Origin: an uncultured Anaerolineae bacterium
GTDB taxonomy: Bacteria > Chloroflexota > Anaerolineae > J036 > Brachytrichaceae
Reading direction: 5' to 3'
NCBI GenBank assembly: GCA_938034415.1
Contig: CALHLE010000043.1
Coordinates: 1 to 35,093 of the forward strand
DNA: 35,093 nt
Both the position numbers and the translations under genes were made by a program. Positions 8,072-10,948 of this stretch are shown here, one piece after another (positions within the stretch are counted from its first letter, which is position 1; the number at the start of each line of letters is the position of its first letter). The notes under the pieces are model-generated. The model ran no database searches, was not told the DNA's origin, and worked only from the letters and a program-made list of their open reading frames with translations.

Positions 8072-8079
8072 GATGCCGA

Positions 8080-8085
8080 TTGTAA
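8080..8085 (-). promoter_or_regulatory. -10-like TACAAT for the metallophosphoesterase
   Basis: On the minus strand TACAAT ends 8 bp before the start codon at 8071. It overlaps a palindrome (GTAAGGC/GCCTTAC, 8082-8096) that could be an operator. No -35 is clear. Confidence 0.4.
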
Positions 8086-8243
8086 GGCGGCCTTACGGCT
8101 TCGGCGGGCGCAGCGCCGTGAGCGTCTGCCCTTCGGTGGCGGATCAACATGGCGCGAGGGCGCACAAAATGGGCGAGCGAATAGCGCCACAAGAGGCAAC
8201 TCTTCAGCAGGGCGAGCATCGCGCGGCAAATGGAGTTGCAGCC

Positions 8244-9884
8244 TCATACCCAGCCGATCGCGCGCGCGATGACTGCGCCGGCAGCGGCGACGATCAGGCA
8301 TCCGCCCATCAGGCCGACCGGGCTGGCCCGCCGAGAGCGCAGCAACCACCACATCGCCAGCGTGGCGACTAGGGGCAATCCGCCCGGCAGAATCGCATCC
8401 AGCACGCGCGTCTGCACGGGCAGTTGCGCCGCGCCGATTTGGATCAAGCCGCTGCCGGGCAATCCGATCGGCACGAGCGCGACAACCAGCGCGCCCAGCA
8501 CGAAAGCGCCCAGGCGCATCGCGCCGAACAAGGCCGGGCGCAGCCAGTTGTTGGCGCGCGCCCAGTCGCCGAAGCGATGCATCTGCGCATAGCCGAGTTG
8601 AAAGCTGATGAATCCGGCCGCCAGCACCAGCGCCGACTGGACGACTGCGAACATGAACGGCCCGACCAGGCTGCCGCGGTCCGCCAACGCCGCGCCTGCG
8701 GCGATGAGCAGCGAGCCGATCGCGCTCCGCATGACCGTATCGCCGATCGCGCCCAGGCCGGCCATGACGCCCGTCTTTGCGCCGACCAGCTCGGCGTCGT
8801 TGATCGCTTCGCCGTTGGCGCGGCGCTCCTCCAACGCGATGAGCGCGCCGACCAGCGATGCGCCGAAGGACCACTCGCAGTTAAACAGCGTCAAGCTGCG
8901 GCGCAACAGCGTGACGCGCTCGCTGGCCGTCTCGCATAGCCGCCTGGCGGCCGGCGCGAGCGCCGCAGCGAACCCCATGTTCTGAAAGCGCTCGAAGTTC
9001 GCGCCGGCGTCGTGGAAGAACGTCCACAGCATGAACGAAGACAGCAGCTCTGCCGGCGACAATCGCTGTCCTGCCACGTAGCCTTCGGCCTGATCGGAGG
9101 GCAGCACGTCGGCGACGAGCATCTCGGCTTTGGCGTCGGCGCGTCGGCGGGCCAGGAAGGCGTGGATGATGGCGATGCTGCCGCCAAGGAGCGTCGCCTG
9201 CGTCAGGTTCAGGTGGGGCGCGCTCAGCCAGCCCAGCAGGAAGTAGGCGACGCTGCTGCCTTGCATGACCAATCGCAGGCTCATGGCGATGCCCAGCGCA
9301 GCCAACAAGTGCCGGCTCCAGTCCATCGCCAATTGCACCCAAGCGGGGATGGATGCGGCGATGCCGGCGATGGTCGGCGCATCGAACAGCAGGATGAACA
9401 GCGCCGGCAGAAACGAGGTGAGCACGACCCAGATCTGCGTGGGGACGACATTGAGCAGCGCGACGCCGCCGACGTTGCCCTGGTCGGCGAAGTAATCGGC
9501 CCAGTGCGCGACCACGGTGTTGAACATGCCGCGCGCGAAGTTCAGCGCGATCCCGAACACGACCAGCGCGCCGAACAGCGCTGCCGTTTCCGGAGCGTCG
9601 GGGCGCAGGCCGCTCAGCAGCATGAGCGGCACCCCGACATAGCCGATGAGCGCGACATCCGGGCCGACCTGCACGCGGAGCTGGCTGAGGGCAAGCGTGC
9701 CCAAGTTGAGCGCGCCGCCGATTTGCGCACCGCGGATCGGGTCACCGAGCAGCGCGCCGGCTATCGTGCCGGCGACGAGCGGCTGGGCCAGCACATAGCC
9801 GCCCAACCCGGCGTTGAAGGCCGAACGGGCAAACGCATAGAACAGGGCGATGAGCGCAGCTTGCAGGACGCTCATCCGGCTCAC
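8244..9884 (-). CDS. Fused PTS mannose/sorbose-family IIC-IID permease, no IIA/IIB nearby
   Basis: The 546-residue membrane protein joins two PTS subunits. Residues 1 to about 255 match EII-Sor IIC (AQPLVAGTIAGALLGD, GAQIGGALNLGTLAL). Residues from about 274 match IID: LSPAELLSSFMLWTFFHDAGANFERFQNMGFAAALAPAARRL, then ALIALEE and GAKTGVMAGLGAIGDTV. IIC and IID together form the membrane channel for hexoses. Transport normally needs phosphorylated IIA and IIB plus HPr, none of which is encoded in this window. The IID segment that usually reads FNTHP is FNCEW here (near residue 333), an altered conserved position. The start overlaps the stop of the MBL gene by 4 bp, so the two are translationally coupled. 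It may be an uncoupled channel, or may use a distant IIAB. The family call is firm; the substrate is unknown. Confidence 0.85.
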   Translation of the reverse strand: MSRMSVLQAALIALFYAFARSAFNAGLGGYVLAQPLVAGTIAGALLGDPIRGAQIGGALNLGTLALSQLRVQVGPDVALIGYVGVPLMLLSGLRPDAPETAALFGALVVFGIALNFARGMFNTVVAHWADYFADQGNVGGVALLNVVPTQIWVVLTSFLPALFILLFDAPTIAGIAASIPAWVQLAMDWSRHLLAALGIAMSLRLVMQGSSVAYFLLGWLSAPHLNLTQATLLGGSIAIIHAFLARRRADAKAEMLVADVLPSDQAEGYVAGQRLSPAELLSSFMLWTFFHDAGANFERFQNMGFAAALAPAARRLCETASERVTLLRRSLTLFNCEWSFGASLVGALIALEERRANGEAINDAELVGAKTGVMAGLGAIGDTVMRSAIGSLLIAAGAALADRGSLVGPFMFAVVQSALVLAAGFISFQLGYAQMHRFGDWARANNWLRPALFGAMRLGAFVLGALVVALVPIGLPGSGLIQIGAAQLPVQTRVLDAILPGGLPLVATLAMWWLLRSRRASPVGLMGGCLIVAAAGAVIARAIGWV

Positions 9885-10948
9885 CGTCCTTTGCCCTTCT
9901 TCGACGCGCCGCCCTTCGGCAAAGCTTTGCGCTTAGCGGGCTTACTCGTCTTCTTGTTCTTGGTCGTCGCCTTCGACTTCGCTTTCGCTGCGCCCTTCTT
10001 CGCCGATGCCTTGCCGTCGGATTTCTTCGCGCGCGCGGCTTTCGCCTGCTTTGTGGTGGCCGGCTTCTTGGCCGTCTTTGGCTTTGCGGCGGACGCCGCG
10101 CGCGATGTTTCGGCAGCCTTCGCGGCCATCAGCCGATCATACGTCGCCAGCACGTTGGCGAGGTGAAGCTGCACCACAGCGCCGTTCAGCAGCACGCGCG
10201 GCATGCCGCATTGCTCGATAGTGATGGCTTTGGCCTCATCGCGGCTGCCGCCGGCGTCAATCAGCTTTTGCACCTTGCTGCGCAGGGTGTCTAGGTAGTG
10301 GACCTGCCGGCGCAAGGTGTCGCGGATCTCGCCGCGCAGGATGATTTCTCCGTGGCCCTGCACGATGTTCTCCAGTTGCATCGCCCCGATGGCTTCGAGC
10401 GACTGCTTAAGCTGATCGGGATCGCCGTTGGTGATGGTTGGCAGGGCCATGACGGTGTCGCCGGAGAACAGAATGCGTTCCTCGTGCAGCAGCACCGAGA
10501 CGCAATCCGCTGTGTGGCCCGGCGTGTGGATGATCTCCAGCGTCTTGCCCGGCATGCGCAGCGTGACGCTGTTCGTGGTGAAGGTGAACGTCGGCAGGCG
10601 CAGTTGGACGGGCGCAAATTCCGGCGATTGCTCCTTGGCGCGTTGCAAGGCGGCGAAGCCGCGCTCGATCAGGATTTCGCGCGCCATCTCGTGCGCGATG
10701 ATCTCGGCTTTGGGGAAGAGAAAGGCGCCGTAGACGTGATCGGCCTCGTGGCCGGTGTAGATTACGAAGCGCACGCCGTCCGGACAGCGCTTGCGAGCGA
10801 ACAAGGCGATCTGGGCCGTTTCGCTTGGGAAAGGAAGTGTGTCGATCAGGATGCCCGTGTTGCCGGAGACGATCAGGCTCGCGGTCACCTGCGCGTAGCG
10901 GTCGCTGGTGAAGACGTAGATGTCCTCCGAAGCCCGTTCCCAATGCAT
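9881..10948 (-). CDS. MBL-fold metallohydrolase with Lys/Ala-rich histone-like tail
   Basis: Residues 1 to about 275 are a metallo-beta-lactamase-fold domain. The first metal motif, usually THxHxDH, reads TGHEADH at 65-71, so D70 and H71 are kept while the first two His positions are Gly and Glu (H67 is shifted by one). The remaining motifs are normal: TPGHT with H145, SGDTV with D164, and QGHGE with H199. Residues about 276-355 are a low-complexity tail of Lys, Ala, Ser and Thr resembling histone H1 or bacterial Hc1-type tails, which suggests nucleic-acid or polyanion binding. The MBL fold covers hydrolases of thioesters, lactones, phosphoesters and beta-lactams; the substrate cannot be told. 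It is first in a two-gene unit with the PTS IIC-IID gene (4-bp overlap). A promoter is visible at 10987-11016. Confidence 0.85.
   Translation of the reverse strand: MHWERASEDIYVFTSDRYAQVTASLIVSGNTGILIDTLPFPSETAQIALFARKRCPDGVRFVIYTGHEADHVYGAFLFPKAEIIAHEMAREILIERGFAALQRAKEQSPEFAPVQLRLPTFTFTTNSVTLRMPGKTLEIIHTPGHTADCVSVLLHEERILFSGDTVMALPTITNGDPDQLKQSLEAIGAMQLENIVQGHGEIILRGEIRDTLRRQVHYLDTLRSKVQKLIDAGGSRDEAKAITIEQCGMPRVLLNGAVVQLHLANVLATYDRLMAAKAAETSRAASAAKPKTAKKPATTKQAKAARAKKSDGKASAKKGAAKAKSKATTKNKKTSKPAKRKALPKGGASKKGKGR

Follow-up and report, generated by a model that had tools for sequence, protein, structure and literature searches.

What does a PTS permease do in a genome that appears to encode no phosphotransfer chain to drive it? 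PTS permeases are a textbook case of phosphorylation-tied transport, and this question was raised by a 35,093-nucleotide stretch of DNA (hereafter the window) from an uncultured Anaerolineae bacterium. In it, an earlier note made from the sequence alone had described a mannose-family permease with its IIC and IID parts fused and no phosphotransfer component nearby, and had proposed a facilitator or a repurposed membrane protein. The window corresponds to contig C43 of a host genome of 2.83 Mb (83 contigs, 98.5% complete), whose named relatives are Candidatus Roseilinea and Thermoflexales MAGs (Anaerolineae, Chloroflexota). Features discussed below are collected in Table 1.

Table 1 Features of the permease locus in window coordinates.
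Feature	Position	Strand	Basis or remark
MBL-fold metallo-hydrolase-like protein, first gene of the pair	9881..10948	minus	Pfam Lactamase_B, adjacency, Foldseek
Altered MBL metal motif T-G-H-E-A-D-H, residues 65-71	10736..10756	minus	Compared with T-H-x-H-x-D-H in most class relatives
Fused mannose-family PTS IIC-IID permease	8244..9884	minus	Pfam, AlphaFold model, dN/dS
Gln34 codon (ManY Arg31)	9783..9785	minus	Predicted break of IIC hairpin HP1
Arg70 codon (ManY Gly67)	9675..9677	minus	Predicted break of IIC hairpin HP2
FNCEW codons, residues 334-338	8871..8885	minus	Predicted tip of IID hairpin HP2

A mannose-family permease by descent

The permease reading frame runs from 9884 down to 8244; the plus-strand reading of the same positions is interrupted by stops. 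Read from a GTG at 9884, which overlaps the stop codon of the preceding MBL gene by 4 nt (as GTGA), it encodes 546 amino acids. The start common among its relatives is an in-frame ATG at 9875, downstream of this GTG, which yields a permease of 543 amino acids, and the GGACGG before that ATG could be a ribosome site.

Both halves were recovered in one chain, in agreement with the earlier note. Pfam EII-Sor (IIC; PF03609) covers residues 6-240 (E = 4e-35, 121.8 bits, cut-off 26.3) and EIID-AGA (IID; PF03613) residues 278-539 (E = 2.9e-50, 171.4 bits, cut-off 25), both far above their cut-offs, while curated NCBIfam thresholds were not reached (for example, TIGR00828 with 139.7 versus 292.75). 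An AlphaFold model that drew on 15 sequences of the family reached a mean pLDDT of 84; in it, the IID half matched ManYZ chain 7dyr_C (Z 18.1 over 262 residues) and the IIC half 7dyr_B (Foldseek); a phmmer comparison with 6k1h_Z gave E = 1.1e-35. By descent, as judged from sequence, the window protein is a mannose-family PTS permease with a predicted ManYZ fold in both halves. It is homologous over both halves to ManYZ of the E. coli and Firmicutes mannose PTS and shares its predicted fold, but differs from it in being a single polypeptide, in occurring in a genus without detected IIAB, HPr or EI and in belonging to a clade changed at residues that are invariant in coupled transporters.

Phosphotransfer proteins in the host genome, genus and family

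No phosphotransfer gene lies near the window permease, and the absence noted earlier for its surroundings extends to the whole genome: EIIA-Man, PTSIIB_sorb, HPr, the EI N-domain and PTS_EIIA_2 were not detected in the 98.5% complete host assembly. Its sole PEP-utilizers_C match is one 969-aa frame; this domain is present in 14/14 control genomes, and control genomes gave the expected PTS profile matches. Most family genomes are MAGs in which single absences are soft, and the no-PTS case is built on nine congeners jointly. None of the same profiles matched in the nine genomes of the window's genus (the host and eight congeners), all of which carry the fused IIC-IID. One of these, G022, is assembled as a single contig of ~4.7 Mb and likewise has no detected PTS phosphotransfer protein. 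On the strength of the nine congeners, this single-contig genome included, an assembly gap was rejected as the reason for the missing PTS.

The suggestion that PTS is rare in the lineage did not hold beyond the window's genus, as HPr and EI were found in 16 of the 28 family genomes. In genera g4 and g8, IIB, HPr and EI are all present and a second fused IIC-IID (~30% identical) adjoins IIB, and genera g3 and g7 combine the window's permease clade with HPr/EI and no IIB. In two further family genomes, G003 and G012, the permease clade is present and no PTS was detected. The clade permease thus appears to be independent of a PTS; where one coexists, the permease is a separate gene. As a side observation, the IIA-Man, HPr and EI domains of the g7 genomes (L181, L182 and L183, from G014, G016 and G015, respectively) lie in one frame of ~800-890 amino acids with a DhaM-like arrangement and no IIB.

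A permease clade apart from coupled fusions

The IIC-IID fusion, taken in the earlier note as a distinctive cue, turned out to be common in ordinary coupled PTS of the class. A search of 396 Anaerolineae genomes returned many fused homologues, nearly all with IIA, IIB and HPr or HPr-EI beside them, which rules out the fusion as the oddity of this locus. These coupled fusions (groups B and C) have the same domain order and fusion as the window's clade, termed group A, and are the nearest homologues outside that clade, reaching ~358 bits; the best matches from outside the family also scored ~358 bits, versus 650-900 bits within it. Their surroundings set them apart: groups B and C adjoin IIB, IIA and/or HPr/EI, with IIB at 9/9 group B loci, whereas group A never does (IIA, IIB or HPr at 0/24 loci) and adjoins an MBL gene instead.

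Group A occurs in 24 of the 28 family genomes and in seven of eight genera. It forms a monophyletic group (support 100/100) set off by a long stem (1.21 changes per site), and its sequences cluster largely by genus, a pattern consistent with vertical inheritance. The class and phylum samples contained no group A member outside the family, and no outside match in the phylum sample exceeded 360 bits. When 84,980 species genomes were scanned with two peptides of the clade, a method that does not see distant relatives, hits came from this family and two Thermoanaerobacter only. As far as these searches reach, group A appears confined to one Chloroflexota family. The Thermoanaerobacter fusions (L085 and L086) lie beside IIA and IIB in ordinary PTS, and G029 (L135), which at first looked like another independent case of an orphan, was rejected as such with IIB located elsewhere in its genome. 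A full-length permease frame is retained in 23 of the 24 group A genomes; that of G023 is frameshifted near residue 344 (L054:3502-5065), reflecting a sequencing error or a recent pseudogene. Three g2 genomes have no permease copy.

Substitutions at coupled-invariant positions

We compared 18 group A sequences with 36 coupled homologues comprising group B, group C, split genes, Thermoanaerobacter and E. coli ManYZ. In the IIC half, the position of ManY Gly67 is Gly in 36/36 coupled proteins and in none of group A, where 17/18 have Arg (R70 in the window). ManY Gly62, also invariant among the coupled set (36/36), is Ala in 15/18 group A members, among them the window protein (A65), and is kept in 3/18. 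ManY Arg31 is Arg in 30/36 coupled proteins and Gln in 18/18 of group A (Gln34 in the window). In the IID half, ManZ Gly113 (35/36 coupled) is kept in 0/18, and two positions invariant in all 36 coupled proteins are variably retained: ManZ Asn73 in 6/18, with 12/18 having lost it, and ManZ Asp120 in 8/18; the window protein keeps both (N335 and D382). Residues fixed specifically in group A are Q34, R70, N122, N302, E365, W447 and R457, while many residues, D76, E298, E352 and K370 among them, are common to group A and coupled transporters.

The FNCEW segment to which the earlier note had drawn attention is present, but proved less telling. Within group A it varies (FNCEW, FNSEW, FSTEF, FTTEF, FLTEP, FATEW and FSSDW), and its fourth-position Glu also occurs in group B and in 10 of 27 other coupled homologues. 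FNCEW was consequently rejected as a group A signature, save for the loss of the coupled-invariant Asn in most of the clade.

In the permease model, Gln34, Arg70 and FNCEW are placed at breaks between hairpin helices; the mannose-binding core consists of the hairpins and TH1-2 (PMC11403280). On this model, the residue changes point to an altered substrate site in group A. They could also affect the substrate alone, and the group A protein may have another role, as a scaffold, receptor or sensor. Judged by its sequence, the window protein departs from a functional PTS in the features tested, namely IIA/IIB, HPr/EI and the invariant residues. Permease dN/dS ranged from 0.08 to 0.24 (0.15-0.24 for the window versus congeners), with similar values for the MBL gene; together with the clade-fixed residues, these values argue for a new, constrained function rather than decay.

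A conserved MBL-fold partner

Directly upstream of the permease and codirectional with it (10948 to 9881) lies a gene for an MBL-fold protein, the two being laid out as a single unit. The protein matches PF00753 Lactamase_B (E = 7.1e-23, 82 bits, cut-off 22.7), and its AlphaFold model adopts an MBL fold with 8d2z, a Burkholderia MBL-superfamily protein, as best Foldseek match (E = 6.9e-19). No N-terminal signal is evident, and the protein is presumably cytoplasmic. The distance from MBL stop to permease start is -4 to +6 nt in all 21 measurable loci from seven genera, most of which show a 4-nt stop-start overlap; outside the 21 are two loci with misread or frameshifted starts and one split by a contig end. 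The pair is kept across seven genera at 37-90% permease identity, with outer neighbors that differ between most genera. On the two points for which the earlier note advised a comparison with other fusions, FNCEW is not fixed in the clade and the MBL partner is kept.

The metal motif of the partner is unusual. In all 26 family MBLs counted, both first His of HxHxDH are replaced, by G/Q/S and E/Q, respectively, giving (G/Q/S)x(E/Q)xDH; Asp70, His71, His145, Asp164 and His199 are retained. CphA-type (B2) metallo-beta-lactamases and 8d2z-type MBL proteins are the fold matches to the partner, which shares only 18-23% identity with them and reaches no beta-lactamase family cut-off. In B2 metallo-beta-lactamases, the ligands of one metal site are kept and a His of the other site is lost. 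The partner recalls these enzymes in its metal ligands, but two His are replaced, not one.

Strong relatives of the MBL protein were found in 316 of the 396 Anaerolineae genomes. Sampled loci across the class (L161-L179) have no permease behind the MBL gene and show varied gene settings; their motif is mostly HxHxDH, with IxHxDH in a few. Within the family, G001, G004 and G013 carry the MBL gene with the altered motif and no permease. Pairing alone, therefore, does not explain the motif change, and these three genomes together with the class-wide loci indicate that the MBL protein does not need the permease. Separately, we observed a Lys/Ala-rich, disordered, histone-H1-like C-terminal tail on the window's MBL protein (residues ~289-355; window 9884-10084, minus strand). 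Such a tail is common in the family and variable in length.

Probable transport without phosphorylation and competing explanations

Taking the sequence data together, we think that the PTS-derived permease probably works without phosphorylation and has the MBL protein as its functional partner. A mannose-family permease would have become independent of phosphotransfer while remaining an elevator-type transporter, now for a small polar solute that stays unphosphorylated (going by the family, a sugar or a compound resembling one) and could move either by facilitated diffusion or through coupling to an ion. The MBL protein might act on the transported compound or its product, so that hydrolysis instead of phosphorylation would trap the solute; alternatively, it might control the permease. 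UlaG, an MBL-fold lactonase, is encoded with the ascorbate PTS permease UlaA. The window pair is similar in joining an MBL-fold hydrolase to a PTS-type permease; it differs in that UlaA comes from a different PTS superfamily, with UlaBC providing the coupling. Precedent for an EIIC passing sugar without HPr/EI comes from E. coli GatC, in which one substitution permitted glucose import without ptsHI, as seen in a ptsGHI deletion (PMC12089948). These GatC F340 variants import solute without HPr/EI (PMC12089948), as we propose for the window permease, but they are laboratory-selected point mutants in another PTS family, whereas group A is a natural, fixed lineage. The most specific version of our reading is a hydrolysis-linked uptake module fixed in one Chloroflexota family, in which a phosphotransfer-free elevator permease is joined to an MBL hydrolase changed at one of its metal sites and intracellular hydrolysis replaces phosphorylation in trapping. 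We offer this version as speculation and hold it to be doubtful as a whole.

The main rival, to which we give a modest chance, is that the IIC-IID trimer no longer transports and has become a membrane partner of the MBL protein, serving as its anchor, its regulator or the sensor of a ligand on its behalf. The close pairing of the two genes, the loss of core residues conserved in coupled transporters and the altered MBL metal motif would all fit, and the Lys-rich MBL tail could contact the membrane. Against it stand the ManYZ fold retained in both halves of the predicted model, the persistence of D76, E298, E352 and K370 as in coupled transporters and the occurrence of the MBL gene without a permease in G001, G004 and G013. 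It is improbable, by comparison, that the permease is an ordinary transporter standing next to the MBL gene only through historical co-transcription of two functionally unrelated genes. The class-wide presence of the MBL gene, elsewhere without a permease, speaks for such an accident, but the pair has persisted in seven genera despite the divergence of the permease and the change of outer neighbors, and its genes overlap by 4 nt in most loci.

A coupled PTS after all, relying on a divergent, unrecognized phosphotransfer chain or on components missing from the assemblies, might be suspected from the presence of IIB, HPr and EI in g4/g8 and of HPr and EI in g3/g7. We consider this quite improbable: EI, HPr, IIA-Man and IIB-Man went undetected in nine congeners, one of them single-contig, and in G003 and G012, with controls behaving as expected, and the group A copies of g4 and g8 are also changed at coupled-invariant residues in genomes that have a separate IIB-linked fusion. 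Least probable among these explanations is a functionless, degenerating relic of a lost PTS. The G023 frameshift and the three g2 genomes lacking a copy are what such a relic might leave, but purifying selection on the permease, with similar dN/dS for the MBL gene, makes it very unlikely, and the full-length frames in 23 of 24 genomes and the clade-specific invariant residues also oppose it. Phosphorylation-free function with an MBL partner, our preferred reading, accords with the part of the earlier proposal that concerned orphan status and repurposing, which is supported by a genus without PTS, 0/24 loci with PTS genes, residue loss and the kept MBL gene; a facilitator and other kinds of repurposing look alike in sequence. 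A full PTS elsewhere in the genome, which would have spoken against the proposal, was not found, and coupled relatives with the fusion exist in other clades only.

Context and flanking genes

Our literature search, which left most subscription journals outside its reach, found no description of an orphan mannose-family IIC-IID, of its link to an MBL gene or of Roseilinea PTS content; earlier surveys of PTS relatives may include orphan IIC/IID genes. A lineage with a permease free of a phosphoryl chain, beside genera that also bear a PTS-linked copy, offers a natural experiment on the need of these permeases for phosphotransfer. The fixed substitutions are residues to probe, and the conserved MBL partner provides an entry point to the new role. 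For annotation, the label 'PTS mannose IIC/IID' in the window's genus does not imply a PTS.

The wider neighborhoods yielded two minor observations. In genera g4 and g8, a divergent galactokinase gene stands beside the MBL-permease pair (L033:2630-3811, L034, L035, L036, L038, L039 and L044). It is possibly a hint to the substrate, but a weak one because the wider neighborhood is syntenic between the two genera. In five congeners, the permease is separated from a YfcE-like phosphoesterase by an MFS transporter gene (L041:3079-4371). In the corresponding window interval (8072-8243, minus strand), no more than ~18 codons of the start of this MFS gene seem to be left (MLALLKSCLLWRYSLAHF, to window 8219); the gap between permease and phosphoesterase is likewise short in G017 and G023.
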